A stretch of DNA of 64,000 bases from Heliocidaris erythrogramma (taxonomy: Eukaryota; Echinodermata; Echinoidea; Camarodonta; Echinometridae): NCBI GenBank assembly GCA_025617745.1, contig CM046863.1:930001-994000 (forward strand), in the 5' to 3' direction. Position 1 is the first letter of the stretch. Every line of letters starts with the position of its first letter. Shown here in pieces: positions 1,051 through 60,470 of the stretch. The notes beneath the pieces were generated by a model. It was not told where the DNA came from. It was given only the letters and a program-made list of their open reading frames with translations, and did not search any database. The translations under genes were made by a program, and so were the position numbers.

Positions 1051-1054
1051 GGCG

Positions 1055-1470: not shown

Positions 1471-1479
1471 AAGTGTGTA

Positions 1480-2220: not shown

Positions 2221-3635
2221 AGAACTGCAATCGTATCAGAACGATGTGCATGGATTGACGTCTGTATTTTGCATGTCATTGAACAGTAAAATAAAAAGCA
2301 TCTCTTAAACTATCTATAGCAATTTGTTTGAAGTCTGTAGCATCTAGAATAGTGGAGATAGGCAAAATCGAACAAAAGGTACGAAACACGGACAAAATGG
2401 CGCCTGGACGGTCATGCATGAGTGATTTAATTGCGATTAAAACAAAGCGTTTGATAGATATTAAAAATCTGGCTTCGAGAGTCTCTTCATTTTGCCTCGA
2501 AGCATGTACCTGCAAAATTTCAAGAAAAATAAAAATCGTTCAGGGGGCCAAATGCGGGAAACCGATTTGCCCCATAGACAATACATGTAATACATGTGCA
2601 GGATCCGTATAATGACCCGACTTCAATCGCGATTTACTCAAAATATTCTGTGAGACCATATATCTTTTTTTGCATCCCTGATGAGGGAATTTTATTGCGG
2701 TCATTGTGAGCCTACTGCGACTAGCGCGCCATTTAAAATAAGCATATTATGCAATATTATGTAATGCATAGTAAATTAAGGTTTTTGCGTAATATCTTTG
2801 CGATGACGTCATCGATTTCAACCAAATTTCAAAGACGTACGATGAATGTTCACAAAATTAGAGCAAGTTGTCTTTATTTCGGCATTTATGCAAATATTGT
2901 GATTTTCAAGTGCAATTTTCTCAAAGTCGGTCAGTGATGAGGTATATATTTTTTTATTTGGCTGAAAAGGGTATATCTTGAAGTATCTAAATCCAAAAAA
3001 GGGTACGGGTTTACCAAGGCATGACGGAGATACGGCCACATGAAGAGAGCCGTTTTGAAAACTTTAGAGGGCGCTGTTTATATAATGCGTAATCAGAAAT
3101 GCATGACATTTTGCAGAAATGTTTGCAACGCCAAGACCAAGACTTGGTAAAAGTTTGAGACAAAAATCAATTGATATGACAAAGTTATAGGAATTTTTAA
3201 TATTCGGGAGTGAAAATTTCAAGAAATTTAGCGTTTTTCAATATGGCCGATTGCGGACTTAAATTTACAGTGTGAAGACGGCATTTTTCGTATTAATTTT
3301 TTTATTAGAATATAAAGAGCAACTCTTGGACTATCTACAGAAATTTGTTAGAAGTCTGTAGGATGTAGGATAGCTTAGATAGGCAATGAGAACAAAAGCC
3401 ATGAAAATGGCCCCAAAACGGCCCCAAAATGGAACAAAATGGCGCCTGGACGGTCATGCATGAATGATTTCGAAAAACGAAGACCTCAATTCACAACTAG
3501 ACATGCCAAGGAACATGCATACATAATTTGAAATGAAATGGAAAAGGGGGAAAGGACCTAGACAGAGCTCACAAACACCCTGTGCAAAACGAATGGGATC
3601 TGAGGCTAAAGAAGAAGAACACAGAAGAAGAAACT
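2221..3635. repeat. Array unit 1 (shortened)
   Basis: Starts at the landmark but lacks about 200 bp of the first half-unit: the sequence jumps from GCATGAGTGATT directly to AATTGCGATTAAAAC, whereas unit 2 has both flanks plus the intervening block. This accounts for its 1415 bp length. Confidence 0.8.
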
Positions 3636-5295: not shown

Positions 5296-6900
5296 AGAAC
5301 TGCAATCGTATCAGAACGATGTGCATAGATTGACGTCTGTATTTTGCATGTCATTGAACAGTAAAATAAAAAGCATCTCTTAAACTATCTATAGCAATTT
5401 GTTTGAAGTCTGTAGCATCTAGAATAGTGTAGATAGGCAAAATCGAACAAAAGGTACGAAACACAGACAAAATGGCGCCTGGACGGTCATGCATGAGTGA
5501 TTCCGGAAAATGAAGAGTTCAGTGCATTACATGGCATGCCAAGGAACATGCATACGAAATTTGAATCGAAATGGACAAGGGGAAAGGACCTAGACAGTGA
5601 TCACAACCACTGCATGCAAAACAAATTGGCCACAATGGAAATCTGGCCCGGATGGCATGCCATATTTCCTTGGTAGTGGCATCTATGCAGGATATAAAAT
5701 TGCGATAACCGATTTGCCCCATAGACAATACGTGTAATACATGTGCAGGATCCGTATAATGACCTGACTTCAATCGCGATTTACTCAAAATATTCTGTGA
5801 GACCATATATCTTTTTTTGCATCTCTGACGAGGGAATTTTATTGCAGTCATTGTGAGCCTACTGCGACTAGCGCGCCATTTAAAATAAGCATATTATGCA
5901 ATATTATGTAATGCATAGTAAATTACGGTTTTTGCGTAATATCTTCGCGATGACGTCATCGATTTCAACCAAATTTGGTTAACAGTTGTCAAATACGAAA
6001 ATACACATACCCACCAAATTTCAAAGACGTACGTTGAACGTTCACAAAATTAGAGCAATTTGTCTTTATTTCGGCATTTATGCAAATATTGTGATTTTCA
6101 AGTGCAATTTTCTCAAAGTCGGTCAGTGATGAGGTATATATTTTTTTATTTGGCTGAAAAGGGTATATCTTGAAGTATCTAAATCCAAAAAAGGGTACGG
6201 GTTTACCCAGGTATGACGGAGATACGGCCACATGAAGAGAGCCATTTTGAAACCTTAGAGGGCGCTGTTTATATAATGCGTAGTCAGAAATGCATGTAAT
6301 TTGGCAGACATGTGTGCAACGACAAGACCAAGACATGGTAAAAGTTTGGGACAAAAATCCATTCATATGACAAAGTTATAGGAATTTTTAATATTCGGGA
6401 GTGAAAATTTCAAGAAATTTCGCATTTTTCAATATGGCGGATTTCGGACTTAAATTTACAGTGTGAAGATGGCATTTTTCGTATTAATTTTTTATTAGAA
6501 TGTAAAAAGCAACTCTTGGACAATCTACAGGAATTTGTTAGAAGTCTGTAGGATGTAGGATAGCTGAGATAGGCAAGGAGAACAAAAGGCATGAAAATGG
6601 CCCCAAAAAGGCATGAAAACGGACAAAATGGCGCCTGGACGGTCATGCATGAGTGAGTTCGAAAAACGAAGACCTCAGTGACCTAGAAGGGATGCCAAGG
6701 AACATGCATACGAAATTTGAAATGAAATGGACAAGGGGAAAGGACCTAGACAGAGCTCACAAACACCCTGTGCAAAACGAATGGGGTCTGAGGAAAGAAG
6801 AAGAAAAAGAAGAAGAAGAAGAAGAAGAAGAAGAAGAAAAAGAAGAATAAGAATGCAGAACGCGAACGAGAATAGAAGATTGACTGACGTCAATCTAACT
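5296..6900. repeat. Array unit 3 with internal deletion
   Basis: Landmark at 5296. Compared with unit 2 it lacks about 150 bp: AAATTGCGAT is joined directly to AACCGATTTGCCCC, removing the AAGCGCTTGATAGAT segment. It ends with a long GAA microsatellite at 6791-6850. Confidence 0.8.
6791..6850. repeat. GAA-rich microsatellite
   Basis: Run of AAGAAG triplets with a few interruptions. Shorter versions sit at the equivalent place at about 3610-3632 and 8505-8530, so the tract belongs to the array unit and varies in length. It produces spurious poly-E and poly-R reading frames. Confidence 0.85.
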
Positions 6901-8530
6901 AGAACTGCAATCGTATCAGAACGATGTGCATAGATTGACGTCTGTATTTTGCATGTCATTGAACAGTAAAATAAAAGCATCTCTTAAACTATCTATAGCA
7001 ATTTGTTTGAAGTCTGTAGCATCTAGAATAGTGGAGATAGGCAAAATCGAACAAAAGGTACGAAAGACGGACAAAATGGCGCCTGGACGGTCATGCATGA
7101 GTGATTTTGGAAAATGAAGAGTTCAGTGCATTACATGGCATGCCAAGGAACATGCATACGAAATTTGAATCGAAATGGACAAGGGGAAAGGACCTAGACA
7201 GTGATCTCAAGCACTGCATGCAAAACAAATTGGCCACAATGGAAATATCGGCCGGATGGCTTGCCATAGTTCCGTAGGTAGTGGCATCTATGCAGGATAG
7301 AAAATTGCGATTAAAACAAAGCGCTTGATAGATATTAAAAATCTGGCTTCGAGAGTCTCTTCATTTTGCTCGAAGCATGTACCTGCAAAATTTCAAGAAC
7401 AATAAAAATCGTTCAGGGGGCCAAAGACGGGAAACCGATCTGCCCCATAGACAATACATGTAATACATGTGCAGGATCCGTATAATGACCGATTTCAATC
7501 GCGATTTACTCAAAATATTCTGTGAGACCATATATCTTTTTTTGCATCCCTGATGAGGGAATTTTATTGCGGTCATTGTGAGCCTACTGCGACTAACGCG
7601 CCATTTAAAATAAGCATATTATGCAATATTATGTAATGCATAGTAAATTAAGGTTTTTTGCGTAAATATCTTCGCGATGACGTCATCGATTTCACCAAAT
7701 TTGGTTAACAGTTGTCAAATACGAAAATACACATACCCACCAAATTTCAAAGACGTACGTTGAACCTTCACAAAATTAGAGCAATTTGTCTTTATTTCGG
7801 CATTTATGCAATATTGTGATTTTCAAGTGCAATTTTCTCAAAGTCGGTCAGTGATGAGGTATATATTTTTTTATTTGGCTGAAAAGGGTATATCTTGAAG
7901 TATCTAAATCCAAAAAAGGGTACGGGTTTACCCAGGCATGACGGAGATACAGCCACATGAAGGGAGCCGTTTTGAAAACTTTAGAGGGCGCTGTTTATAT
8001 AATGCGTAATCAGAAATGCATGAAATATGGCAGAAATGTGTGCAATGGCAAGACCAACACATGGTAAAAGTTTGGGACAGAAATCAATTGATATGACAAA
8101 GTTATAGGAATTTTTAATATTCGGGAGGGAAAATTTCAAGAAATTTAGCGTTTTTTCAACATGGCGATTTCGGACTTAATTTACAGTGTGAAGATGGCAT
8201 TTTTGGTATTCACTTTAAAAAAAGAATGTAAATAGCAACTCTTGGACTATCTACAGGAATTTGTTAGAAGTCTGTAGGATGTAGGATAGCTGAGATAGGC
8301 AAGGAGAACAAAAGGCATGAAAATGGCCCCAAAACGGACAAAATGGCGCCTGGACGGTCATGCATGAGTGAGTTCGAAAAATGAAGACCTCAGTGACCTA
8401 GAAGGGATGCCAAGGAACATGCATACGAAATTTGAAAAGAAATGGACAAGGGGAAAGGACCTAGACAGAGCTCACAAACACCCTGTGCAAAACGAATGGG
8501 GTCTGAGGAAGAAGAAGAAAAAGAAGAACT
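6901..8530. repeat. Array unit 4
   Basis: 1630 bp unit with both halves present. It carries several single-base differences from its neighbours, such as CGACTAACGCGCC for CGACTAGCGCGCC. Confidence 0.85.
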
Positions 8531-9219
8531 AGAATTGCAATCGTATCAGAACGATGTGCATAGATTGACGTCTGTATTTTGCATGTCATTGAACAGTAAA
8601 ATAAAAAGCATCTCTTAAACTATCTATAGCAATTTGTTTGAAGTCTGTAGCATCTAGAATAGTGGAGATAGGCAAAATCGAACAAAAGGTACGAAACACG
8701 GACAGAATGGCGCCTGGACGGTCATGCATGAGTGATTTCGGAAAATGAAGAATTCAGTGCATTACATGGCATGCCAAGGAACATGCATACGAAATTTGAA
8801 TCGAAATGGACAAGGGGAAAGGACCTAGACAGTGATCACAAGCACTGCATGCAAAACAAATTGGCCACAATGGAAATATTGCCGATGGCATGCCATAGTT
8901 CCGTAGGTAGTGGCATCTATGCAGGATATAAAATTGCGATTAAAACAAAGCGCTTTGATAGATACTAAAAACTGGCTTCGAGAGTCTCTTCATTTTTCCC
9001 TCGAAGCATGTACCTGCAAAATTTCAAGAAAAATAAAAATCATTCAGGGCCAAATGAGGGAAACCGATTTGCCCCATAGACAATACGTGTAGTCTTTGGC
9101 AGGATCCGTATAATGACCTTACTTCAATCGCGGATTTACTCAAAATATTCTTGAGACCCATATATCCTTTTTTTGCATCCTGACGAGGGAATTTTCACTG
9201 CGGTCATTGTGAGCCAACT
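8531..9219. repeat. Array unit 5, cut by gap
   Basis: Begins at a slightly changed landmark (AGAATTGCAATCG) and stops at the run of N. Small indels increase towards the gap, which suggests poor sequence quality. Confidence 0.8.
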
Positions 9220-9719
9220 NNNNNNNNNNNNNNNNNNNNNNNNNNNNNNNNNNNNNNNNNNNNNNNNNNNNNNNNNNNNNNNNNNNNNNNNNNNNNNNNN
9301 NNNNNNNNNNNNNNNNNNNNNNNNNNNNNNNNNNNNNNNNNNNNNNNNNNNNNNNNNNNNNNNNNNNNNNNNNNNNNNNNNNNNNNNNNNNNNNNNNNNN
9401 NNNNNNNNNNNNNNNNNNNNNNNNNNNNNNNNNNNNNNNNNNNNNNNNNNNNNNNNNNNNNNNNNNNNNNNNNNNNNNNNNNNNNNNNNNNNNNNNNNNN
9501 NNNNNNNNNNNNNNNNNNNNNNNNNNNNNNNNNNNNNNNNNNNNNNNNNNNNNNNNNNNNNNNNNNNNNNNNNNNNNNNNNNNNNNNNNNNNNNNNNNNN
9601 NNNNNNNNNNNNNNNNNNNNNNNNNNNNNNNNNNNNNNNNNNNNNNNNNNNNNNNNNNNNNNNNNNNNNNNNNNNNNNNNNNNNNNNNNNNNNNNNNNNN
9701 NNNNNNNNNNNNNNNNNNN
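9220..9719. other. Assembly gap (500 N)
   Basis: Exactly 500 N, a conventional placeholder length. The ~1.6 kb array stops on its left and the Helentron-like array starts on its right, so the junction between the two repeat systems is not visible. Confidence 1.
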
Positions 9720-10772
9720 CTATGGGAAATGTTTTGGTATATTGGTCAAAGCACTTGCCTCTCACTCCGGTGACCCAGGTTCGATCCCCAGTGGGTCCAT
9801 TAAATTTTTTTTTTTTTTGCTTCTTTTTGCCTTTCATTTTACCATCTTGTTCGACTATTAAATATTAAGCAATCACAAACCAAGTAATAAACTGCCTTAT
9901 TTTGCGTGTTTTGTCTATTGGAAAGTAGTGTGCAGTAGTTTGTGTACAACCCTATGGAAATTTCTCAAAATTGGCTTGGTCAATTATCTTCAAATTTTCA
10001 TCAGTAATCAGTCCTAATAAGGTCAAGTTCGCGCATCTTTTTCAAGGTCATCAGATTATCGTGACGTCATCCAGATGACATTTTGTAAAAATCAACTTAT
10101 GGTCGTATCTTCTAACGAAATGTGATTTCTCTTTCATATTTGGCATGGTTAAGGTCACCGTCATTGCAGTCATGGTCATCCATCACCATTATCATCACCA
10201 TCACCATCACCATCATCATCATTATATCATCATGATTATCATCACATCAATTATCATCATCACTGTCATGATATTCATGATGATGATGATGATAATGCTG
10301 ATTAACATCACCCATTATCATCATTACTGTCATGATGATATAATGATCATCATCATGATTTTCAACACCATTATCATCACTGTCATGATGATATTCATGA
10401 TGATGATTATCATCAACATCATTATCATCATCACTGTCATGATATTCATGATGATGATGATGATGATTAACATCAAAATCATTATCATCATCACTGTCAT
10501 GATGATATAATGCTCATCAACATCATTATCATCATCACTGTCATGATATGATCATCACCATGATTATCATCAACATCATTACATCTTCCAATGACCGTTT
10601 CACACATTTTTCTACATTCCTGTCCTCAAGAAGCATCTCCATGCGTGGCATTCTTGACTTCTTATCTTCAGTTTAGTATTTCCCCATTATTATGATCATC
10701 TTGATTACAATCATGATCATACAAATTGAAGACAGACCACCTAATTCGTCCTCATGACGAATTAAATTCTAG
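9720..10772 (+). mobile_element. Helentron-like unit A (5' cut by gap)
   Basis: Only the 3' half is present. tRNA-like module type 1 at about 9734-9803, CAT/ATC minisatellite at about 10160-10590, 3' hairpin at 10742-10764 and CTAG at 10769-10772. The body is nearly the same as in units I and L. Confidence 0.75.
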
Positions 10773-20065: not shown

Positions 20066-20158
20066 AATACTGATCCCGTCAATTTCAGAAAATTAGACGC
20101 GCGCGTACGCTTATGTTCGCGCGTCAGTGCGCGCACAACAATGAAAAATGCCAACCCC

Positions 20159-20882
20159 GATAACTCCTAAACAACTTCGTCGATCTTTCTGAATCTTTCC
20201 ACAATCATCACATCTTGACCAAACATCATGCACACAAAAAGGCACATTCGTAGCTCAAATAGTTTTTTTTTTAAAAATCATTTATTGTCTTTTGGACCCC
20301 CCCCTCTTTTTTACGGGAAAATAACTCGAAAACGAAACAGTGAATCTTTTTCAAATTCGACACAGTCATGAGACCTGATAGGAAGAGTTCACAGTAAAAA
20401 AAACAAGTTCACGACGTCATTATGACGTCATCCAGGCTTCATTAAGTGAATTTTTGGTGATAAATGCCCGATAACGCCTAAACAAGTTGGTCGATCTTGC
20501 TGAATCTTTCCACAATCATCACATCTTGACCAAACATCATGCACACAAAAAGGCACATTCGTAGCTCAAATAGTTTTTTTTTTAAATCATTTATTGTCTT
20601 TTGGACCCCCCCCCCCCTTTTTACGGGGAAAATAACTCGAAACGAAACCTTGAATCTTTTTAAATTCGACACAGTCATGAGACCTGATAGGAAGAGTTTC
20701 ACAGTAAAAAAAACAAGTTCACGACGTCATTATGACGTCATCCAGGCTTCATTAAGTGAATTTTTGGTGATAAATGCCCGATAACGCCTAAACAAGTTGG
20801 TCGATCTTGCTGAATCTTTCCACAATCATCACATCTTGACCAAACATCATGCACACAAAAAAAAACACATTCGTAGCTCAAT

Positions 20883-20890
<8 letters not shown>
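20159..20890. repeat. ~310 bp tandem repeat, 2.3 copies
   Basis: GATAACKCCTAAACAA begins at 20159, 20470 and 20780 (spacings 311 and 310). Each unit contains CACATCTTGACCAAACATC, a C-run, and ACGACGTCATTATGACGTCA. The third copy breaks off in a long T-run (20884-20913). Sequence at 20914-21236 is non-repetitive with no recognised gene. Confidence 0.85.
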
Positions 20891-20916
<26 letters not shown>

Positions 20917-46704: not shown

Positions 46705-48851
46705 TTTTTATTTACTTTTAAGGCAAATTGTTGTGGCCACGAAATCTCAAAATCGGCCAGGTCAATATCATCGAGTTTCATGTCATGTATGAGGTCAATC
46801 ATGGACATGGTCCATTAAGCTTTTGGAGGTCATCAGGTCATCGTGACGTCATCAAGACGCCATTTTGTAAATTTACAAGATCGATTATATCTTCATAATC
46901 GATCATCAAAAATCAACTATATTCACATCACATAAACTTCACATGACGGGTCATCAAGTCATGTCCTCACAGGTCATCTAGAGGTCAGCACGTGTGCGTA
47001 CGCGCGCGTCAAAATTTAAAAATGCTCAAAATCACGTAGGATCAAGTCTGCACACGTTTCAGGTCATTTTGAGCATTTCAAAAATGTCCGTGCGTAAGCG
47101 TCCGTGCGTGCGTTTTACGCGCGCGCAAGTCGTAAATAACGTTAAAACGCTGTTTTTTGGATTGATTTGCACTCCTGACACTTTTCTTCATCATTTCCAT
47201 CAACTTGGAATCAAATTTCAATCAATAATAAGGTCGTACGGGCGCGTCAAAGTTCAAAATCGATGCGCGCATCTATGACGAAAATAACGTAAAAACGTTC
47301 AAAAACATGCCTCTACAAAATTAACTCTAGCTCTTTAAATAGTCCATAAACCCCCAATTTTTTTTCATCATCAGGTAGGGTATGAATCATAGATTTTATT
47401 TCATGTATCATTTCACCCTTATAAATATTATGACGTCATCAAAATGGCGCCAGAAGTCAACATTTCCAATTTTCATGTTTTGACGTCATCACATTTATGC
47501 AAATTTGGCTCTAGATTCCTAATTATTGGTCGTTTTTCGCCCAGATTTTAATATGTTGTAGCTGAGGCAATTTCCTACAAAATCAGTGACCACAATTTTC
47601 CATTTTGATGACGTCATCACAGTGAAATTTTCAATTAAAGATGCCATGTCAGAATTTTCCCTATTTGCGTGTTATGTCTATGGAAGATGATTTTTTTTCG
47701 AATCATGAATCTACATGACATTGTTCTCTGAGCTGTATCTCAGTTGTTTTGGGTCTATTTTCTTCCAGATTTTAGTATGTTATAGCTGAGACTATAAGCT
47801 TTTATAGGTGTGGTCTCCAATTTTTGATCAGATGTCGGGATCATGCCCAATTTTTCACTACAAAATGGGATTTGAGAATCCCGTTTTTCGTTTACGTGTT
47901 ATCTCTATGGGAAATGTTTTGGTATATTGGTCAAAGCACTTGCCTCTCATTCCGGTGACCCAGGTTCGATCCCCGGTGGTTCATTAATTAATTTTTTTTT
48001 TTTGCTTCTTTTTGCCTTTCATTTTACCATCTTGTTCGACTATTATAACATAAGCAATCACAAACAAAGTAATAAAATGTCTTATTTTGCATGTTATGTC
48101 TATTAGAAAGTAGTGTGCAGTAGTTTATGTATAACCCTATGGAAAATCGGATTCCCTGAAGTGTATTAAAGCTATCCTGCAATATCATTAGTCCTATTTG
48201 ATATCACAATTTCTCAAAATGATAATGATGTTGATGATAATCATGATGATGATCATGATTATCATCAACATCATTATCATCATCACTGTCATGATATTCA
48301 TGATGATGATTATCCTCAACATCATTATCATCATCACTGTCATGATATTCATGATGATGCTGATGATTATCATCAACTTCATTATCATCACTGTCATGAT
48401 ATTCATGATGATGATGATGATGATGATTATCAACATCATTATCATCAGCACTGTCATGATGATATAATGATCATCATCATGATTATCTTCAACATCATTA
48501 TCATCATCACTGTCATGATATTCATGATGATGATGATGATATAATATCATCACCGTCATGATCATCATTGCTATTATTATTGTCATCACCATCATTATAT
48601 CACCTTCATCATGATAATCATCACCATTATCATGATTGTTATCTTGCACAAATATTATCACATCTTCCAATGACCGTTCCACACATTTTCTACATTCCTG
48701 TCCTCAAGAAGCATCTCCATGCGTGGCATTCTTGACTTCCTATCTTCAGTTTAGTATTTCCCCATTATTATGATCATCCTGATTACAATCATGATCATAC
48801 CAATTGAAAGACAGACCACCTAATTCGTCCTCATGACGAATTAAATTCTAG
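46705..48851 (+). mobile_element. Helentron-like unit R, last of the array
   Basis: 5' hairpin absent. Type 1 module at about 47922-47985. The minisatellite begins with a perfect 29-bp-arm inverted repeat at 48219-48280. CTAG at 48848-48851, followed by (TTA)n. Confidence 0.8.
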
Positions 48852-49438
48852 TTATTATTATTATTATTATTATTATTGCTCCACTTATTTTACTGAATTA
48901 TCCGCAATTTCAATTAAGTATTTTAAGTGTTAAAATATGGTCTGGCGTCCCCCCCCCCCTAAATTTTGGTGCTTCCGCCGCCAATGCCCCTCCCCTCTCT
49001 CTTTCTCTGTCATCTTTCCTTCTCGATCACACTTTCAACTTCCCCCTATCCCTTAGTCTTTCTTTATCAAATCTTCCCTCGTTCTCTCTCTCTCTGTCGA
49101 TCTCTCTCTCCCTCGCCCGCTCTCTTTCTCTCTAGGAAACATTTTACCCTCCCCGTTCTTCTATGAAGTTCAAACATTGTCGAAATGAGGAAAAAACAAG
49201 ATCATTTGATCTCCCCGCCCGCGCACGACTTGTTTATAAATAACTTCTGGGACAAGAACAAAGTGCCCTACATTTCGACCCCATAGCCAAAGACTTTAAA
49301 TAGTATCAAGACAGATTACTCTGACCTACTTCCGGAGTACATTTTGGAGGCGTAAATTCCTGTGTTAAAAACAGACTCGGAAAAATACGTTCCCCATAGG
49401 TATAACATGTGAAAAGATGTCTCACTTTGTCTTGATAT
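48852..49438. other. (TTA)n, CT-rich tract and unassigned sequence
   Basis: (TTA)n at 48852-48880, a C-run near 48947-48959 and a pyrimidine-rich CTCTCT tract at 48985-49140. From about 49200 the sequence is ordinary. CCCCATAGGTATAACATGTG at 49392-49411 resembles the ~190 bp tandem repeat at 59590-60470. No gene was recognised. Confidence 0.6.
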
Positions 49439-49442
49439 TTAA
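49439..49442. other. TTAA target site, left side
   Basis: TTAA directly outside the left inverted terminus, matched by TTAA at 59508-59511 outside the right terminus. This is consistent with a target-site duplication. Confidence 0.75.
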
Positions 49443-49466
49443 AGGTCCCCTTTTATGAAATTATAA
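49443..49466 (+). repeat. Left terminal inverted repeat
   Basis: AGGTCCCCTTTTATG followed by AAATTATAA. Pairs with the reverse complement of 59484-59507 at 22 of 24 positions. Confidence 0.75.
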
Positions 49467-49602
49467 TTCTTGGTATTTTGTAAATACGTATCGAAATATT
49501 TTTAAAATAATATTTCCCCAAGGTATTCATGTCCAAAACAGTCTCTTAAGCTCCGCCCCCTTTTAAACCAAGAATTCTCGTTCCGCGAGCATGATTGACG
49601 TG

Positions 49603-49610
49603 TGACGTCA
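49603..49610. promoter_or_regulatory. CRE palindrome upstream of THAP ORF
   Basis: TGACGTCA about 105 bp before the THAP start codon, with a GC-box-like CTCCGCCCCC at about 49553. A matching pair of TGACGTCA sites lies near the other end of the element (59319-59326 and 59329-59336). This suggests inward-facing promoters at both ends; function is inferred. Confidence 0.4.
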
Positions 49611-49714
49611 CAAACCGACATTGCCGATGCTTGTTTACAATATTGCCTATGTATTACATGTGCAAACTAACTTGCTGTTGTGTATACCACCTCGAAAACC
49701 ACCTCTAAAAAAGT

Positions 49715-50047
49715 ATGCCGCAACGCTGCGTTGTTGCAGGTTGCAGTAACACCACAAAGGAGGGTGTCAGTCTACATTTATTCCCTAAAGACCCAAATAT
49801 AAGAAGGAAATGGACCGCAAAAGTAAAATTAACTCGCGCCCATTGGAAGGGGCCGAGTGAGCACAGTGTTGTGTGCTCCGAGCACTTTTGTGCGGAGGAC
49901 TTCGTCGATAGCACGGGGCTGCGTATGGCATCAAGAAGAGGCCGTCCCGGAAACAAGTTTGATCATACATGTATCAATAATATGAAATTTGGCGACTCTG
50001 AGCTTTACCTCACAAGCACCTCTCTCAATTGGTCTTTACTATTATGA
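49715..50047 (+). CDS. THAP zinc-finger domain protein (first exon or short ORF)
   Basis: 110 codons. The THAP domain occupies about residues 1-70 with the C2CH zinc ligands C5, C10, C54 and H57 (C-x4-C-x43-C-x2-H, within the family range) plus the conserved P24, W33 and F63. THAP domains bind DNA and occur in P-element and Kolobok transposases and in host regulators. The ATG lies four residues before the first Cys, as is usual. After residue 70 the sequence no longer resembles a THAP end (no AVPTIF-like motif), and a possible splice donor (GTATGG) lies near residue 70, so the domain may continue in another exon that was lost or displaced. The nested gypsy element starts 216 bp downstream. 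Coding capacity as a DNA-binding module is well supported; expression and full gene structure are not. Confidence 0.8.
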   Translation: MPQRCVVAGCSNTTKEGVSLHLFPKDPNIRRKWTAKVKLTRAHWKGPSEHSVVCSEHFCAEDFVDSTGLRMASRRGRPGNKFDHTCINNMKFGDSELYLTSTSLNWSLLL

Positions 50048-50262
50048 TTTTTTTTTGTTCTTGATGAAGAAAAAGATCTTTTTCCATAAAGAGTGTTATA
50101 AAAATGTTTATCATGGTAGAGTGGAAACTCAGTATAAAGAGGTCTGATACAACAATATTCCTGATATAACAAGGCAATATTTTGGTCTCAACTCTTTATA
50201 TTCTTTTTTTTTTAAACTGATATAACGAGATTCTGGATTTAACCAGGTAATTTTAATAGTCC
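50048..50262. other. Sequence resembling pogo/Tigger termini
   Basis: Contains repeated GATATAACRAG words (for example near 50162 and 50218) and TAATTTTAATAGTCC, reminiscent of pogo/Tigger-type transposon ends. Weak resemblance from memory. The gypsy LTR follows directly. Confidence 0.25.
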
Positions 50263-50956
50263 TGTAGCGGTTGGTCGCTACTTATAAGGCGAGATGGGAA
50301 TAAGAAGCAATCACCACTTACCGACTTTATGCGTGCAGGGGTTAACCGGACATGGATCCTCCAAAATGCCAAAAGTTTCCAAATATTGCACAATCCGATT
50401 CAAATATATATTTACACAGGTATCACCACAGAAATGATCACAAAACTACTTGGCTAGCACAAGCGAGATTTGGACTGTTCTCTGAGTGAATTGCAGAGAA
50501 TAAAATGATGAAATAGAAATTCCTCCAGGTGAGATGATGGAGTATTGAATTAATGTGAAGTAGAGAATTGTAGAAATTGCTCCAATTGAAGTGCAGGAAA
50601 CAAATTCAGAAGTGAAGAGATGACATCCTCAAATTAACGTGTTAACTCGATGAGAAAACTTTGAGAAGTGTGTCTAGCAAAGATGGAGATGAAAAGTGTT
50701 TGTTCTTATCCCTTGCTAGTGTGGCAGGATGAAGAAGAAAGGGAGTATTGTTGAAAGTCCTTGAATTGAGGGTGAGTCATTAATGTGCGATGGGCATGGC
50801 CATGCAGCTGACCACTTGTTGATAGATAAATGTGATAACATAGGGGTGGTCGTGATTGCTGGTATAAAGGGCAATGTCCTCTCAAAATGACTTTGTACAA
50901 TAAGTGAAAGTGAGAAATTAAAGAAAAGATGAAGTGAGGATGAGGAAAATACTACA
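50263..50956 (-). repeat. 3' LTR of gypsy element
   Basis: 694 bp, TGTAG...CTACA on the plus strand. Differs from the other LTR by one extra A near 50680 and one G/A change near 50809. Confidence 0.93.
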
Positions 50957-50970
50957 TCAGCCCCCTCCTA
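50957..50970 (-). other. Polypurine tract
   Basis: Minus strand reads TAGGAGGGGGCTGA directly before the 3' LTR, where plus-strand DNA synthesis is primed in LTR elements. Confidence 0.75.
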
Positions 50971-51036
50971 GAACGTTGAATAAAAATGAAACGGTCGATA
51001 ATTGAGAAAATAGTCCGAATGAAATAAAATAATATC

Positions 51037-53229
51037 TCATTTGAAATTCCAAACTTGAACATAGCGTTTGGGAAAGTGTACTCTTCTGCCGGAGCGAGTT
51101 TGTCTGACTTCGGGCTTGGCAGGAGGAGTGATAGAGGGAGGTTGAGGCTGAGAGGTTGGTGTAGTAGGCGCTTGTGAAGGTATAGGGTCCTGTGAGAGTG
51201 TTGGACCAGGGTTGGTAGTAGATTTGACGGGCGAGTCCAAGTATGCAGGTTTCAAACGGTCGAGACTGACGCTGTCTTGTTTTCCTTTGAGTTGGATGAT
51301 GAAAAACTTGTCAGTTCGTCTGATGACTTCGAAGGGGCCGTCGTATGGTGGTTGGAGAGGTTTCTTGACTGCATCATGTCGCACAAATACATGGGTGCAT
51401 GTTGTGAGATCAGGATGAACCTGTGGTTTGCGTTGTTGAGCACGAGTGGGCTGAGGTCTGAGGTTCTGCATTTGTCTCCGTAGTCGGTGGATGTAGTTGC
51501 TAGGGTCCAAATCACAATCATTCTGACTAGGCGCTACAAACTGACCTGGCAACCTTATTGTTGTTCCATATACCAGTTCAGCTGCGCAACAACCTAAATC
51601 AGATTTGACTGCAGTTCGGATTCCAAGCAAGACGAGAGGGAGAGTTTCAGTCCATCTCGCACTAGTGGTAGCTTTGAGAGATGCTTTGAGTTGTCGATGA
51701 AAGCGCTCTACAAGTCCATTTGATGCTGGGTGGTAAGATGTAGTTCGAATCCGAGAGCTGCCAAGAAGATGAGTTAGGGCTTGAAAGAGAGAAGATTCAA
51801 ATTGTCGTCCTCTGTCGGTTGTGATGGTTGAGGGAGCTCCGAAGCGAGATACCCATTGTGAAATGAAAGCTTGGGCAACAGTCTCAGCTGATATGTCGGG
51901 GATTGGTATTGCCTCAGGCCATCGAGTGAAACGGTCAACACAAGTGAGGAGATATGCATTGCCATTTGAAGGAGGGAGGGGTCCCACGAGATCGATGTGG
52001 ATGTGGTCGAATCTAGCGTCTGGCGTTGCGAAAGTACCTATCGGTGCCTTGGTATGACGATGTACTTTGCAACGTTGACACTGTATGCAAGTTTTAGTCC
52101 AACTTCTGACATCTTTGTTGATTCCAGGCCATACAAATCGCTCAGTGATGAGTTTTTGAGTAGCATTGATGCCGGGGTGAGATAGGTTGTGAAGAGCATC
52201 AAACACAACTCGCCGAAATTTGGCTGGGATGTAAGGGCGAGGATTTGTAGTTGAAGTGTCACATAGAATGGTAGAGTCAGAAGTAGGGAGTGGTAGAGGT
52301 TGGAGTTTGAGCGAGGTTGTTTTGAGTTGTTTGAGTTCCTCGTCATCCTCCTGAGCAGTGGCGATGACATTGAAATCAATGTTGGAAGATGTTTTGAGCG
52401 AGTTGATTTCCATGCGGGAAAGTGTGTCTGCCACTACGTTGTGTTTGCCACTAACATGCCTAATATCAGTCGTGAATTGCGATATGTAGTCTAGATGCCT
52501 GACTTCTCGTGGTGAATACCTGTCGGGTCTAGAGTTGTAGGCATGGATGAGTGGTTTGTGATCTGTGTAGACACAGAATTGCCGTCCTTCTAGTGCATGC
52601 TTGAAGTGACGAATGGTGAGGTAGATAGCTAGAAGTTCACGTCCGAAAGTGCTATATCTGGTCTCCTCTGCTGGCTGCAGGCGTTTGGAGAAGAAGGCGA
52701 TGGGTTGCCAGTCATCGTCAACTAGTTGCTGCAACACCCCTCCGACAGCAACATCTGATGCATCAACCATAATGCAGAGTGGGGCATTAGGCTTAGGGTG
52801 TGACAGAAGTGTAGCGTTAGCTAATGCTGTCTTGACCGAGTTGAATGCATGGAGGGCTGTTTCGTCGAGATGAATTGCCTTGTTTTTCTGCTTGCATGCT
52901 AGGAGATCAGTGAGTGGTTGTGTGGTAGCTGCACAATCGGGAATGAAGCGTCGATAGAAGTTGATGAGTCCGAGAAACTCGCGAAGTTTGCGTAGAGAAT
53001 CAGGGACAGGGAAATCGTTGATGACTTTGACTTTCTCGGGAAGAGGGCGGATGCCGTTCTCATCAACGATATGGCCGAGAAAGGTGAGGGAGGATGCGCC
53101 AAATTCACATTTGGCTGGGTTGATGACAACTCCATATTTCGCAAGTCTAGTGAAGAGAAGTTGCAGGTGTTGTACATGCTGCTCCGGTGTCTCACTTGCG
53201 ATGAGGAGGTCGTCGATGTAGGCGTACAC
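51037..53229 (-). pseudogene. gypsy pol: RT end, RNase H and integrase
   Basis: 730-codon open frame. It opens at the YIDD catalytic box of reverse transcriptase (residues 4-7) and runs through the connection to RNase H: D156, E198, D223 and D268 are at the expected catalytic places. Integrase follows with zinc ligands H347, H351, C381, C384 and the DDE triad D413, D472, E508. The C-terminus is Pro/Ser/Thr-rich and ends near [10 protein letters not shown], common in gypsy elements. These domains would copy the RNA into DNA, remove the RNA strand and insert the DNA. All key residues are present, but the frame is separated from the N-terminal part of RT by a single-base frame change near 53238-53246. 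It is therefore not continuous with gag-pro as assembled. Confidence 0.93.
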
Positions 53230-53603
53230 AAAGGGAAGACCACGGTTACCTCATCAATGAATCGTTGAAAAGTTTGTGCGGCATTGCGTAGCCCAAAAGG
53301 CATGGGCACAAACTCAAATAACCCAAAGGGTGTGGTGATGGCTGTTTTGTGTACGTCTGAGGGATCGACTGGTATCTGATGGTAAGCTCGTATGAGATCG
53401 AGTTTTGTGAAAACTCGTTTGCCTGCTAGGGCAGAGGTGAAATCTTGAAGATGGGGGATTGGATATTTATCGGGAACTGTATTCCTGTTTAGTGCCCGAT
53501 AGTCTCCGCACGGTCTCCAGTCTCCAGGGGTTTTCTTGGGCACCATATGAAGTGGGGATGCCCAGTTGCTGCTGGATGGTCGGGTGATACCCAGTTCTAG
53601 CAT
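52899..53603 (-). pseudogene. gypsy pol: N-terminal reverse transcriptase
   Basis: Residues 1-120 are [24 protein letters not shown], the motif-A aspartate D69 in [11 protein letters not shown], and [17 protein letters not shown]. After about residue 120 the frame leaves the protein (the YIDD box is in another frame from 53229), so the listed tail is not real. RT homology also extends upstream in this same frame to about 53638 (AKAEFDHM before the nominal start), so the start codon at 53603 is only an internal Met. The frame change to the protease frame lies near 53634-53640. Confidence 0.88.
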
Positions 53604-54268
53604 GTGGTCAAATTCAGCTTTTGCGATGGTGGCCTGTCGGTTGCTAGGCGACGTGGACGGGCTGATACAGGAGGGCCTTTAGTCTCAATGTGATGGGTGA
53701 CGGAATGTTTGATTGTTGCCTCCTTGTACACATGACGTGTGATGTCAGGAAATTGATTGAGAAGAGATTTGTAAGCAGCTTGACTGTCTGGCTTTACAAA
53801 CATAGGACTGATAGAAGGAGTAGAAGAAAGGATGCCTTTTACTGAAAGATTAGTAGTAGAATCGATGAGTCGAAGATTGCGAACATCAACCAGCAAACCA
53901 AAGTGGTGTAGGAAGTCTGCCCCTAGGATAGGCGTGGAAATATCAGCAATGATGAAAATCCATCTGCAAGCTCGACGTAAGCCGACGTCGAGAGTCAGGC
54001 TTCGCTCTCCGTAAGTAGTAATACTTGAGCGATTTACTGCTTGTAGATGAAATTTCGAAGAAGGGTGATGTTTCTCCGATTTTGAAGGAGGAAGAACGCT
54101 TACTTCAGCTCCAGTGTCTACGAGAAATCGAATTCCAGTTTTCCTATCGGTAACGTAGAAGAGGCGACTATTTTGTGTCGTGCCAGTGGGACTTGTCGCT
54201 GCTAGTCGCTGGCTTGGTCGTTTCCCTGGTTGGTAGAAGCAGGTTTGAAGGAGCAGGGAGGAGAGCAT
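53597..54268 (-). pseudogene. gypsy aspartic protease region
   Basis: Contains LFYVTDRKTGIRFLVDTGAE with the catalytic DTG at residues 51-53, and ILGADFLHHFGLLVD, typical of retropepsins. The protease would cleave the gag-pol product. It ends in the linker before RT ([14 protein letters not shown]). The first ~25 residues overlap the end of the gag frame by 67 bp in a different frame, which could be a natural gag-pol frameshift or another indel. Confidence 0.85.
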
Positions 54269-55100
54269 TTCTTGGCCTCAATACCGAACCTCCAGTGATA
54301 ATAGCAGTCCCCTCCAGCATGGCGTTGTGAGCTGGGGCTTCTTGCTTTTCGGTCTTGTTTTTGACGAGAACCTCGATCACGGCTACGACTTCGGCCTCGA
54401 TCAGGCTGAGAAGACAGGGCTTGAACTTGCAATGTAAGCTGTGAAATTTGAGCCTTGAGTTCTTGCATCTCAGCAGAAGAAGTAGAAGAAGGAGTAGGTT
54501 GGGAGGAAGAAGACAGGTTCGAGATAGCGTGATAGTTTGATGGAGTAGTTGTCTCAATAATTTTATCCGCCAAATCCGCGAGCTTTTCTATCTCCATAGA
54601 GTCCCTAGTTGAAGCTAATACAAGTTGCACATTTGTTGGGAGCCTTTGTAGAAAAAGTTGCTTCAGAATGTTCTCCTCTAGCTTGCTGGTTCCTAATAAT
54701 TGCTTCATTTTTCGGAGTAACTGAGAGGGTTTGCGATCTCCCAGTTCCTCTGAAATGAGTAACTGATGTAGGCGTTTTTGCTCGGATGCCGAAGTCCTCT
54801 GGATAAGCTCAGCCCTTAGTTTGTCGTATGGCGTTTCCTTCGGGGTGAGATGAGAATATCACGAATTTCTTGAGCATATTCAGGCTGAAGGGATGCGACA
54901 ACGTAAGCGAATTTCGTTGCCTGAGCAGTGACGCCTCGGGTTGTGAACTGCGCCTCTACCTGGGCGAACCAAATGGTAGGATCATTTGGCCAGAAGGGAG
55001 GAATTCAAAGTTTGAGTTGAACATTTGAGACAGATGGAGAGCTAGAAGAAGTTTCAGAAGATGGAGAAGTTGAAGAATCAGTCATATTGTCAGTAGGCAT
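54202..55100 (-). pseudogene. gypsy gag, interrupted
   Basis: The likely start is at 55100 (MPTDNMTDSS). Codon 32 is TGA (55005-55007) just before PPFWPNDPTIWFAQVEAQF, a conserved gag motif in this group. A single-base frame change lies near 54841-54845. The rest (54202 to about 54840) includes YDKLRAELIQRT, a capsid-like region, an RS-rich stretch and a C-x2-H-x9-C-x3-C knuckle (CYYHWRFGIEAKKCSPPC), then the stop at 54202. Gag packages element RNA. With these breaks it cannot yield full-length protein. Confidence 0.85.
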
Positions 55101-55204
55101 TGTGACAGTTGAAATGGCAAGTAGATATATGAAGTAAAGGGTGACAATAAATGAAAACAATTTGACGAAGGATGAATGCTACTCAGCACGTTGGTCGGGT
55201 TTAG

Positions 55205-55222
55205 ATCACGTCGGGGTCACCA
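55205..55222 (-). other. Primer-binding site, tRNA-Trp type
   Basis: Minus strand reads TGGTGACCCCGACGTGAT one base inside the 5' LTR. This is complementary to the 3' end of animal tRNA-Trp (TCACGTCGGGGTCACCA), recalled knowledge. Confidence 0.85.
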
Positions 55223-55223
55223 G

Positions 55224-55916
55224 TGTAGCGGTTGGTCGCTACTTATAAGGCGAGATGGGAATAAGAAGCAATCACCACTTACCGACTTTATGCGTGCAGG
55301 GGTTAACCGGACATGGATCCTCCAAAATGCCAAAAGTTTCCAAATATTGCACAATCCGATTCAAATATATATTTACACAGGTATCACCACAGAAATGATC
55401 ACAAAACTACTTGGCTAGCACAAGCGAGATTTGGACTGTTCTCTGAGTGAATTGCAGAGAATAAAATGATGAAATAGAAATTCCTCCAGGTGAGATGATG
55501 GAGTATTGAATTAATGTGAAGTAGAGAATTGTAGAAATTGCTCCAATTGAAGTGCAGGAAACAAATTCAGAAGTGAAGAGATGACATCCTCAAATTAACG
55601 TGTTAACTCGATGAGAAAACTTTGAGAAGTGTGTCTAGCAAGATGGAGATGAAAAGTGTTTGTTCTTATCCCTTGCTAGTGTGGCAGGATGAAGAAGAAA
55701 GGGAGTATTGTTGAAAGTCCTTGAATTGAGGGTGAGTCATTAATGTGCGATGGGCATGGCCATGCAGCTAACCACTTGTTGATAGATAAATGTGATAACA
55801 TAGGGGTGGTCGTGATTGCTGGTATAAAGGGCAATGTCCTCTCAAAATGACTTTGTACAATAAGTGAAAGTGAGAAATTAAAGAAAAGATGAAGTGAGGA
55901 TGAGGAAAATACTACA
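55224..55916 (-). repeat. 5' LTR of gypsy element
   Basis: 693 bp, TGTAG...CTACA. Near-identical to the LTR at 50263-50956. On the minus strand a TATA-like CCTTTATACC lies about 90 bp into the LTR and could serve its promoter. Confidence 0.93.
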
Positions 55917-56077
55917 CCCTGAATGTAGTGAAAATGTAACGGGCAATTTTCAACCTACAACCCCCCCCCCCCCCCCCCCTCGTTCGGCAGGAAAAAGGGT
56001 ATACATCACAGGTACAGGTTGATTCCTACTTCTCTACCTTATACATGTAGTTCATTTGACAGAAAATCTGTTTTCCA
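55917..56077. other. Short flank with C-run
   Basis: Sequence after the gypsy element, with an ~18-base C-run at 55962-55979. Nothing else recognised. Confidence 0.5.
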
Positions 56078-56450
56078 ATGATTCCCTCTCTCTCTTTCAC
56101 CATTTCTTCTCTTGTGCTTTCCCTCCCTTTCTCCCTCTTTATGCCCAAAATTCTCCACTTACACACATCTTCCCTCAACTTTTTATCTCCTTTTTCCCCC
56201 AATGATTCCCTCTCTCTCTATTTCTCCCCTTGTGCTTTCCCTCCATTTCTCCCTCTTTATGCCCAAAATTCTCCACTTTCACACATCTTCCCTCAACTTT
56301 TTTATCTCTCCCTTTTCCCCCCAGTGATTCCCTCTCTTTTTCACTATTTCTTCTCTTGTGCTTTCTGTCTCCCTTTCTCCTTCTTTTTGCCCAATATTCT
56401 CCAATTACACACATCTCCTCTCAACTTTTTATCTCTCTTTTTTTTTTTTC
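56078..56450. repeat. Pyrimidine-rich ~120 bp tandem repeat
   Basis: About three copies, each starting TGATTCCCTCTCT at 56078, 56202 and 56324 and containing TTTATGCCCAAAATTCTCC and ACACATCTTCCCTCAAC. Long ORFs on both strands here are artefacts of the repeat. Confidence 0.85.
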
Positions 56451-57834
56451 TTTTTCCATTCTGCCAATTGTTGGTTTTGATCTCATTCCCGCACTCATAC
56501 CTTTCTTTTCAATTGTTAGTTTCATTCACGACAAGCCTTGCATAGTAAATGTGTTTGAGCTCTTCCATGGAGATATAGATGTTTTATCCAGGAAATGGTT
56601 GTCTTACAATTGAACATCAAAAATTCAACAGAATACCCACCCCCCCCCCCCCCCAAAAAAAAAAAAATAACAAAACAAAACAAACAAAACTGATTAGCTT
56701 CCAAAGTGTGTTTCATTAACAAATTAAACAACAAATGCCATAAAAAATAACAGTCCTCATATGCCATTAACAATAGAGTTATCATTCTTGACTGAGATAC
56801 ATGCATCTTTACAACATCAATTACAAAAAATGCTCTGGGCAAATACTTAGATGTGAACTCAGTTACCCAATTCCAATTTTATTTCTGACAGTGAAAATGA
56901 ATATTCAAAATAAGCCTCCTAGACTCTTTTCCTCTGATACTTGAAGCAAAAACAGCAATAAAATTTTTACATTGTCACAGTGTAGCACACCCTCATGTAA
57001 TAAACCCAACTTTCAGGGAAACTGATATCCATGTATAGGAATTAAATATCATGAAAAGATAGACTGAACAATGACGTACTAGCATTTTTAACATTTCTTA
57101 TAAACAGTTATATACATGATAAATGTATATGCTATCTAAGCGTTATCAAGTTAACAACTAGACCAACATATATAAGTACATAATAATAAATACAACAATA
57201 AATCAAATGAAAGAAGAAAAAAAAAATCTGTAGAAAAAATAATGTCAATTTGAAAAGAAATATGATGTGAAGCAACAATAATGATGATCACATGAATGAC
57301 CCGATTAAATAAAAGATGTTTGCCAGTCATTAGTACTGAATATTTTTTTCTTTCAAATAATGACTTTGTGTAAATGTTTACACTGATGGAACAACAGTTC
57401 TGATACATAAATATTTTTAAAATGTTCAATTCTACTATCACCTTTGCATAATGTTGAGATTTGTGCATGTCATATCCAAGCCCCAATAAAAAAAAAATAT
57501 GAGAATAATGGTTGCATAGCTTAAATTAAAGTTCCACAGAGCTGCCCTCCCTTTTGATTTTTTTTGCAAAGGTTAAAAAAATATATATACATACAGTAAA
57601 CTTTGAAAAGAAAATACCCTAAAGAGGTAAAATGCAGGGAATATTTCCAATTTAAAAAAAAATATCTTTGAAAATCTATCTTAGAACAGTAATAAAAATC
57701 TCAGTAATAAGGTGGAAGTAAAACATATTTTTCTGTAAACATAGATCTTGACAAGGTGGGGGAAAAGATATCAACAGCAAAATTGTATGTAGGTCTACGC
57801 CTCTTCAAAGCCCCTGTTCTGTTCTGATCCAGGA
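56451..57834. other. AT-rich interior, nothing recognised
   Basis: Low-GC sequence inside the TTAA element with a C-run/A-run at 56639-56668. Short ORFs up to 111 codons have no recognisable domain. No transposase motif was found. Confidence 0.5.
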
Positions 57835-58117
57835 TTGAGTAAAAGAGGGGGCCCAAAAATGAAAGTTTGTCAAAAGGTAGACCCGTATTTTTCTGGTCTC
57901 GCCAGCTTCTCGAAAAGTCGCTCAGCGAGGAGGGGGGGGGCGGGGGGGGGGGGGGGGCAAAAAAAAGAAATTCGCCAAACCTTCAAAAATCGCTCAGTAA
58001 GGGGTTATTGGGGTCCAGTTTCCCCTCCATAATTCCCTGACAAGCAACAAAAAAAATCATACTTCTCTTCCAAAGGGGGGGGGACCGGGCCGGCTGTGCC
58101 CCCTGGATCCGCCAATG
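57835..58117. repeat. G-rich dispersed repeat
   Basis: Contains TCTCGCCAGCTTCTCGAAAA, a G-run (57932-57957), CCCTGACAAGCAACAAAAAA and CCCCTGGATCCGCCAATGG. Related sequence is at 60660-60950 in the same orientation and at 62390-62640 in the opposite orientation (GTTGCTTGTCAGAGAA). Its left-hand end replaces the end of a P2X7-like exon. Confidence 0.7.
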
Positions 58118-58118
58118 G

Positions 58119-58195
58119 TTCTGATGGAAATGCTGCACGGATTCTTGTCACGGCACAAGATGGAAGAGGAACACGTCCTGCCCTGCCTGGCTTTC
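58119..58195 (-). CDS. P2X7-ballast-like exon, third block (truncated)
   Basis: After a TTTTATAG acceptor the frame reads KPGRAGRVPLPSCAVTRIRA then AFPSE, resembling the conserved VxLPSCxVxxIRxxFP motif near the end of the ballast domain. After FPSE the sequence turns into the GGCGGATCCAGGGGG dispersed repeat, so the natural C-terminus is lost. Confidence 0.6.
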
Positions 58196-58453
58196 CTATA
58201 AAAGATTTTTTTTTAAGATTAGACAACTTCAAAACAATGCACAGTGTAGTCTATGATGTAGGTGATAGTGAGGTAACTTTTACTTTGAACTTCACAAATA
58301 AACAATAGAAGATAATCTTCCTCTATTTACATTAAGGCTAAAACATTATTTTCTTTTATAGAATATCGTAATATTAATTTCATAAGGAGCCAAATTTTAT
58401 ATAATACAGGAATACTGCAGTAAGGATTAAAACAAAAAATATGGTGTACTCAC

Positions 58454-58560
58454 TGATTTTCAGTTGCATCCTGCCTTGCCTGTCCGCCATACTGCTGTCG
58501 ATACAAATAGTAAGCAGTTTCCATCACATACCGCTCCATGCAGACACACTGGATGAAACC
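58454..58560 (-). CDS. P2X7-ballast-like exon, second block
   Basis: 107 bp, open in one frame only, bordered by an acceptor with a CTT-rich polypyrimidine tract (ending CACCCAG) and a GTGAGT donor. It encodes about 35 residues containing CVCMERYVMETAYYLYRQQY, which resembles the conserved CL-x2-WVL-x2-AY-x2-YRQQYG segment of the ballast domain. Too short to show in ordinary ORF scans. Confidence 0.65.
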
Positions 58561-58951
58561 CTGGGTGGAGAAGAAGAAGAAGAAGAAGAAGATCATATCT
58601 ATTGTCAACTATAACGGTACCTACACTTACTTAGTGTAGCAGCACAAAGAAAACAAGCAAGATAACAGGAGAGCTAAGAGTTTTCTGGATATCAATGTTA
58701 GAATTTACTAGAATCAAACGCTACCACCCCATGCACCAGTAAAACTGCCCAAGCGCAAGCCCAGGCAGGGTCAGCAGGCGAACAATCAAACGGCGCGGCG
58801 TGTACCCCCGCCGCACATCGAGCTCACTGCCTCGATCAGCGAAGTATCAGCTCAGCCTCTCGGGCAATTTGCAAGCGTAAACAAGATTCATAATACGTGG
58901 ATATGCGTGAATTAAACTTTAATCGGTAATTTATTATCAAAAAATAATTAC

Positions 58952-59152
58952 CAGTTGTTATTCCCAAGTCTCCCGTCGATATCCTCTCCGTTATTAAAAT
59001 CAGGGACGTCTCTGTCATCATCAGAATCTTGCCCAGAATCCGACATGTCTGGCTCAAACATAGTATACGACCGGGCCCCTAATTCCTCTTCAATTTCTTC
59101 TGGGACTTGATGCTCCAAATCAGATATATCTGATCCTGAATAAGTGTCCTGG
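58952..59152 (-). CDS. Acidic exon upstream of the ballast-like exons
   Basis: 201 bp between a TTCTTCAG acceptor and a GTAATT donor. It encodes an Asp/Glu/Ser-rich peptide with SDISDLEHQVPEEIEEELGA, EPDMSDSGQDSDDD and RLGNNN, ending in TG of what would be a Trp codon. In related invertebrate proteins (recalled) the same layout precedes a WC-x-CG motif. No clear start codon in frame; an initiating exon further right was not identified. Confidence 0.55.
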
Positions 59153-59318
59153 CTGAAGAAGATGATGCCAACGTTGATGTAGGATTTTGTCTTTAAAAAG
59201 CTAAAATGAAATGCTGAAATGGCACGAAGTCGAAGGGATCTACACGAAGCTGATCAATAGCCATAACACACACACATCGATACTCGATCCAGCTTGTGTG
59301 AGTCGAGCGTTCTGTGGG

Positions 59319-59336
59319 TGACGTCACATGACGTCA
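59319..59336. promoter_or_regulatory. Two CRE palindromes near right end
   Basis: TGACGTCA at 59319-59326 and 59329-59336, about 170-185 bp upstream (minus strand) of the acidic exon. Mirrors the CRE upstream of the THAP ORF. Confidence 0.4.
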
Positions 59337-59483
59337 TCGATCGCTGGACCGATTTTCCAAAATTTTTAGGGGCGTTCCCAGTTATTTTTTTATTTTCAAG
59401 GTTACAGATTAATGAATGGAATTCAGGTAATATGATTGACAGATCTGGATTCACAGTAGAAAAGTCTATTAAATGAAGTTCCT

Positions 59484-59507
59484 TTGTAATTCCATAAAAG
59501 GGGACCT
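59484..59507 (-). repeat. Right terminal inverted repeat
   Basis: Reverse complement starts AGGTCCCCTTTTATG and continues GAATTACAA, matching the left end with two mismatches. TTAA follows at 59508-59511. Confidence 0.75.
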
Positions 59508-59589
59508 TTAATATCTTACTCTATATTTTTCAAGTCTGATTTTTGCACGAGAAAAAGGATGGATAGTTAAAAAAACATTTCTTGAACCC

Positions 59590-60470
59590 TTTTTGTCAAT
59601 AAATGCCGCTATATATCCCTTGGATCATGCCTGCTTTTTGACAGAGTCATCTGCCATAGGGTTAACACGTGAAAACATGGATTTTAAAAATGATTATAGT
59701 TCCTCTAGTATTACCTTGAATTTAGTGCAAATGTAGCTTACATGTAATTTGAGACTCTGAAAAGGCTTAATGAAGGCTCAAAAGGTGCAAAGGACCCCGC
59801 ATAAATCCCCGGGAATATGCATGCTTTTGGCCTTCCATCTCCCATAGGTTAACACGCAAAAACGGGAATTTTTGAATGATTATAATTCCCGCAAAATTAA
59901 ATCAAAATTTTGAAAAATGTGCCTTGAATAAAATTTAAGGCTATGAAAATGTATAATTAAGACTCAACTAGTTGAATAGACCCCGCATAAATCCCCGGGA
60001 ATATGCATGCTTTTTACCCCAAAAAAGTCTCTCCTGCCATAGGTTTACACGCGAAAACAAGGAATTTTAGGATGATTATAATTCCCTTTGTTTATCTTTG
60101 AAAATGTAAAAAATGTGATTTACATGAAATTTAAAGCTCTGATAAGGTATAATTAAGGCTTGATGAGTCCAGTAAACCCCCCATAAATCCCCGGGAATAT
60201 GCATGCTTTTGGCCTTCCAGCTCCCATAGGTTAACACATGAAAACAGGGGTTTTGAAATGATTTTAATTCCCCTAGTATTTATTTGAAATTATGAAAAAT
60301 GTGATTTACATGAAATTTAAAGCTCTGAAAGGGTATAATTGAGGCTCGATGAGTCCAATAAACCCCGCACAAATCCCCGGGAATATGCATGCTTTTGACC
60401 AAAAAAAAATAATTTGCCATATTACACGTGAATTCCAATTTTGTTATCGATGACCTAATTTGGGCGTGTA
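59590..60470. repeat. ~190 bp tandem repeat
   Basis: ATAAATCCCC (or a variant) starts at 59801, 59987, 60183 and 60369, with a diverged copy near 59599. Spacings are 186-196 bp. Each unit contains GGGAATATGCATGC, CCCATAGGTTAACAC and a GATTATAATTCC-like word. The sequence left of the TTAA element (49392-49430) carries the same CCATAGG..AACAYGTGAAAA motif, so the transposon probably inserted in the outermost unit. Confidence 0.85.

Follow-up and report, generated by a model that had tools for sequence, protein, structure and literature searches.

A family of internally deleted transposons with THAP and P2X7 ballast-like gene remnants, very probably Kolobok elements of the Kol0 type

The 64-kb stretch of DNA analysed here (the window) contains at positions 49443–59507 a single DNA transposon, as the initial annotation of this 10-kb piece had proposed. 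With high confidence, we identify it as a non-autonomous derivative, by internal deletion, of a two-gene Kolobok transposon of the Kol0 type, a placement that rests on the two-gene plan, transposase plus KolX, predicted from sequence for its relatives in the same genome.

Terminal repeats and gene remnants of the window copy

The element is bounded by TTAA target-site duplications at 49439–49442 on the left and, as read from the sequence, at 59508–59511 on the right. Comparison of the two ends placed the left terminal inverted repeat at 49443–49466 on the plus strand, with a 5'-AGG start of the RR type, and the right repeat at 59484–59507 on the minus strand. The repeats match at 22 of 24 positions, or 26 of 28 if TTAA is included, and the terminal sequence of the family reads AGGTCCCCTTTTATG. 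The 19-mer TTAAAGGTCCCCTTTTATG was found at two sites in the 64 kb, both of them the ends of the element, where 0.01 would be expected at ≤3 mismatches, and the best inverted 28-mer between the end regions scored 26, compared with 19–21 in 40 shuffles; taken together, the 19-mer count and the shuffle comparison rule out chance as the origin of the ends. The inverted ends of about 24 bp with TTAA on their outer sides, as first annotated, are thus borne out. Another feature cited at the outset, the occurrence of TGACGTCA upstream of each gene, was dropped, as the window contains the motif 72 times, in 69 cases outside the element, and TGACGTCA by itself provides no evidence for it. Six family members inspected do have TGACGTCA near their ends; of the larger relatives described below, L038+L039 has a single such copy and L037+L040 lacks it.

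A THAP domain exon reads inward from the left end at 49715–49909 on the plus strand, in agreement with the initial annotation. Pfam (PF05485, E = 5.7e-14, profile positions 1–62 of 87) and tblastn with the sea urchin protein P0126 (E = 3e-29) identify it as the N-terminus of a Kolobok transposase, corresponding to approximately residues 1–66 of P0126; the exon lacks the AVPTIF-type end of the domain. Through a lost stop, the frame in the window extends to 110 aa, and the tail of this ORF occupies 49910–50047 on the plus strand, whereas the frame of 14 of 18 other copies closes after 78 aa. Beyond the THAP exon, tblastn with P0126 and P0128 found no transposase in the window at E 0.5, and the element contains no DDD/E core with the C/DxxH motif and HHCH finger. 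A Pfam search of five frames inside the element returned one further, sub-threshold domain match (E = 0.092), and Rfam at gathering thresholds gave no match in 49400–59600.

The ballast gene, KolX, reads inward from the right end on the minus strand, and its pieces were placed by tblastn with P0001, a 206-aa protein. The first-exon remnant lies at 58951–59133 (P0001 residues 17–78, E = 1e-11), the middle-exon remnant at 58452–58567 (residues 121–157, E = 9e-13), with a shift in the reading frame near 58541–58567, and the last-exon remnant at 58119–58196 (approximately residues 173–198, E = 7e-11 in the region and 5e-9 in the window). The last exon is split by an insert at 57829–58117, which we take to be hAT-like and which is flanked by the 8-bp duplication GTTCTGAT at 57821 and 58118. 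Beyond it, at 57795–57827, lie the severed C-terminal codons with the stop, where a tblastn match that is weak alone (E = 1.5) agrees with the end of P0001 in position and sequence. For P0001 residues of about 79–120 and 158–172, tblastn found no match in 48800–60300. The ballast-like exons first annotated on this side are therefore present, but the gene they belong to is broken by missing stretches, a frame change and the insert in its last exon. With two of the nine cysteines of P0001 left, the zinc-binding cysteine set of the P2X7 ballast domain is not retained, and the KolX of the window copy can hardly act.

The identity of these pieces was derived from their protein relatives. Single ballast exons gave weak or absent Pfam matches (last exon, P2RX7_C, E = 0.065), and the joined pieces gave no P2RX7_C match in Pfam and no PDB match up to E 10; a sub-threshold match of the joined pieces to Atypical_Card (E = 0.0071) was taken as chance. 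In a protein search with the joined pieces, five of 14 candidates matched, namely P0001 (PF20478, E = 4.4e-35), P0002 from Lytechinus pictus, P0003 and two oyster proteins. P0001 itself matches P2RX7_C in Pfam (1.4e-16) and solved P2X7 structures in the PDB. An AlphaFold model of P0001 from five sequences was poor (pLDDT 48.6) and was left unused, and scans of viral_contigs and genome_contigs gave no confirmed ballast relatives.

Copies of the family in the same genome and the site of insertion

The genome of the window itself (1.064 Gb, 26 contigs) was searched twice with DNA and once with protein. With the left end, 522 candidates were obtained, of which 40 were scored and found to be 94–98% identical; with the right end there were 559 candidates, and the 40 scored were 95–99% identical, the window itself being excepted in both cases. 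Twenty of the scored left-end matches were retrieved, 10 kb each, starting from the best-scoring, so that older or broken copies are under-sampled. Both ends are present in 18 of these 20 loci. Each of the 18 has TTAA on both outer sides, 20-mer flanks that differ by eye, and the THAP exon and the three ballast pieces in constant order between its ends, over spans of 3.4 to 7.3 kb. The test proposed in the initial annotation, whether independent copies contain both genes between TTAA-flanked ends, thus gave a uniform answer. In L019 and L022 the THAP exon is interrupted by frame changes. In L016 both genes are present and the match ends before the right end, and L015 contains the left part only. 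The right-end search also yielded a 2.3-kb short version (L033:1505–3783), in which neither the THAP exon nor any of the three ballast pieces has been lost.

The copies are very similar to one another, with a mean pairwise difference of 0.96% at the left and 0.97% at the right among 19 copies including the window, suggesting that the family spread recently. The insert in KolX with both GTTCTGAT duplications is found in 17 of 18 copies, L013 lacking one side. The shared insert and the shared stop of the THAP frame indicate that the founder was already broken when the family spread. None of the 18 copies yielded a match to the two missing ballast stretches, and no transposase match extends past residue 95 of P0126 or P0128 at E 1e-3 in 36 loci, which overlap partly and include the window's own place. 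The family is non-autonomous: the DDE transposase core is absent from the 36 loci and the damage to the ballast gene is common to the copies. As no core was found in the window or in these loci, we file the window copy as a non-autonomous derivative and not as a working Kolobok. The suggestion that a mobile element carries and spreads ballast genes therefore stands as far as the many copies are concerned, but what was spread here is a dead ballast fragment.

It is conceivable, albeit quite unlikely, that the 78-aa THAP-only frame is made as a protein and acts in trans as a repressor of full-length Kolobok, which would make the family both a parasite and a brake. The KP element, a repressor of P, provides a parallel.

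Within the transposon, and foreign to it, is nested a gypsy-type LTR retrotransposon at 50263–55916 on the minus strand, whose LTRs (50263–50956 and 55224–55916) are 99.7% alike. In the nine copies compared across the junction from both flanks, the gypsy element is absent; in its place they have an extra 57 bp (eight of nine) or 42 bp (L013) that is absent from the window, and no clean target duplication was found for the gypsy element at 50263–55916. The adjoining piece at 50122–50262, inside the transposon, has matching sequence in other copies and, by our assumption, resembles a mariner-type MITE.

To the right of the element, at 59654–60397, lies a 186-bp tandem array of 3.9 copies with 75% matches. 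When the window flanks are joined at one TTAA, they are identical to two array units at 121/185 and 117/185 positions, with alignment scores of 130.5 and 129.5, where 200 shuffles each reached no more than 106.5 and 110.0. This comparison is moderate evidence and suggests that the transposon inserted into a diverged unit of the array. Elsewhere in the window, the region 2800–47700 contains the 69 sites of TGACGTCA that lie outside the element, recurrent similar open frames and ATC-rich tracts, as well as a run of N near 9204–9720; a 310-bp tandem repeat of 2.4 copies with 95% matches is located at 20156–20895.

Larger two-gene relatives and classification

When the padded THAP sequence was used as a query, three of nine candidates proved to be P0126 from Diadema setosum, P0128 from Lytechinus variegatus and a pipefish THAP-E2F protein. 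The latter (P0127, Entelurus aequoreus, 461 aa) combines a Kolobok-like THAP with E2F/DP and E2F CC-MB domains, possibly by domestication or by fusion of gene models. P0126 (692 aa) and P0128 (783 aa) both contain THAP together with the Mutator-like transposase domain PF20700 (34.3 and 26.9 bits, cut-off 26.5), and the motifs GDGRAD, TDRHRQ and DVWH as well as an HHCH finger are common to the two. P0128 alone shows LESYH, which includes the third acidic residue, because the corresponding region is missing from P0126.

P0126 was also used to search the same genome; 64 of 5157 candidates were scored, which yielded 66 matches. THAP and core matches lie within 6 kb of each other in at least eight places, two of which were read, L037+L040 and L038+L039. 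In L038+L039, transposase exons occupy 854–6214 on the plus strand and KolX exons 10036–8314 on the minus strand, between TTAA-flanked ends at 498 and 10655 that form short inverted repeats with a raw match of 13/20. In L037+L040, transposase exons at 839–8725 and a convergent KolX at 13093–11635 lie between TTAA-flanked ends at 452 and 13793, again short and inverted, with a raw match of 15/20. By alignment, the transposase exons of both loci reach P0128 residue 783 and contain the DDE core with its motifs, so that they encode putative transposases. In PF20700, the core of L038 scores 34.5 bits and that of L037 19.4, below the cut-off of 26.5; one TAA is flagged within the L037 core match, where the alignment seems to enter an intron. 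KolX has three exons in both elements, with junctions near P0001 residues 78/79 and 157, the very points at which the ballast pieces of the window end, and all nine P0001 cysteines are kept in each. The last KolX exon of L038 matches P2RX7_C in Pfam (8.9e-8), and the middle exon has no Pfam match. The terminal sequences of both elements differ from those of the window family, indicating that neither is its direct parent, and no parent with exactly the ends of the family was found.

These features support the Kolobok assignment already suggested in the initial annotation. The window copy has the TTAA duplication, ends that both begin with AGG, in line with the 5'-RR...YY-3' ends by which Kolobok is defined (PMC9587614, in its description of the ends), and a THAP domain at the N-terminus of the transposase; its relatives combine THAP with a Mutator-like DDE core. 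The second gene of Kol0, a KolX with a ballast domain, is present in broken form in the family and in fuller form in L037+L040 and L038+L039. In the full-length kind, the THAP/DDE transposase reads inward from one end and KolX from the other. The transposase of a full-length relative would bind the AGG... ends, excise the element and paste it into TTAA, with KolX perhaps serving as an accessory protein of transposition. A deleted founder, its KolX already broken, may then have been mobilised in trans to many sites in recent times.

Alternatively, a THAP-bearing non-autonomous element could have captured the ballast piece from a host gene, in which case the ballast sequence would be cargo and not an old gene of the element. 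That no parent with these exact ends was found, and that the same two ballast stretches have no match in all 18 copies, would fit such a capture, as would the marker-linked ballast genes described for invertebrates in the relevant part of Rump et al. (PMC7016195). However, in the two larger elements of the same genome KolX occupies the corresponding position, with orientation and exon junctions unchanged, and KolX is a described gene of Kol0 in the account of PMC9587614; we therefore consider capture very unlikely. Far less credible still is a chance arrangement of two unrelated short MITEs flanking host THAP and ballast genes. The ends are short, and THAP and ballast domains occur in other proteins too, but in 18 of 18 two-ended loci, each at a different site, the two genes are enclosed by the same pair of ends. 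These independent copies refute the arrangement and, with it, the reading of the ends as two separate MITEs, which had been named at the outset as one outcome that would overturn the annotation. A piggyBac-type element with a KolX-like protein, which would share TTAA and for which the discussion of KolX in PMC9587614 offers a precedent in a few piggyBac families with proteins like the KolX C-terminal part, is likewise highly implausible, given that both ends start with 5'-AG, the RR type of Kolobok and not the non-RR type of piggyBac, that a THAP exon is present and that the core of the relatives is Mutator-like, with DVWH and HHCH. The reading as a deleted Kol0 element thus remains the one we adopt.

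Relation to known systems

The main idea, that the ballast domain is a Kolobok gene, is already in print. In the sections concerned with KolX, Kojima and Bao 2022 (PMC9587614) report that Kol0 elements encode a transposase and KolX and assign the ballast fold to KolX; they further state that the tail of P2X7 and likely also nanor derived from KolX, and that ballast-like proteins of diverse animals had previously not been recognised as parts of Kolobok. The hosts given there for Kol0 are vertebrates, annelids, cnidarians and sponges, and the echinoderm mentions in those sections concern KolobokP. An echinoid-like KolX family with a young burst was not found in searches of the literature on KolX, on P2X7 and Kolobok, on the ballast domain and transposable elements, or on sea urchin Kolobok. 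The present analysis adds an echinoid-like host, a young burst of deletion derivatives and fuller relatives in the same genome.

The results provide direct genomic support for the published view of the ballast domain as a transposon gene, in a lineage absent from the Kol0 hosts that those sections of PMC9587614 list: a young family has copied KolX sequence to many sites, and fuller two-gene elements exist in the same genome. Together, these observations imply that invertebrate annotations as 'P2X purinoceptor 7-like' may often be transposon genes. For both genes, the closest named relatives include proteins of sea urchins, in addition to those of oysters for the ballast gene and of a pipefish for THAP.

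P0001 belongs to the same domain family as the P2X7 ballast with its Zn-coordinating cysteines and nanor (PMC7016195), as judged from its best match to P2X7 structures in the PDB (E = 1.6e-4). In contrast to the mobile copies described here, the invertebrate ballast proteins treated in the main text of PMC7016195, in which the string 'transpos' occurs 0 times, are products of genes with partly conserved neighbours. Rump et al. 2020 describe in this connection linkage between ballast genes and two markers over a range from sponge to sea urchin, suggesting that in those cases some ballast genes are fixed host genes rather than mobile ones.

With Kol0, whose type is Kolobok-1_XT, as characterised in the pertinent sections of PMC9587614, the elements share TTAA, 5'-RR ends and the pairing of a DDD/E transposase with KolX, as far as sites, ends and gene content are compared; unlike Kol0, the window copy is without a DDE core and its KolX is broken, and its relatives point to an echinoid. 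The Xenopus T2-MITEs and XKol (PMC6004289, whose main text mentions neither KolX nor P2X) resemble the window family, according to that text, in TTAA, in AGG ends and in non-autonomous amplification, presumably by a Kolobok transposase. In contrast to them, the window family retains pieces of both genes.
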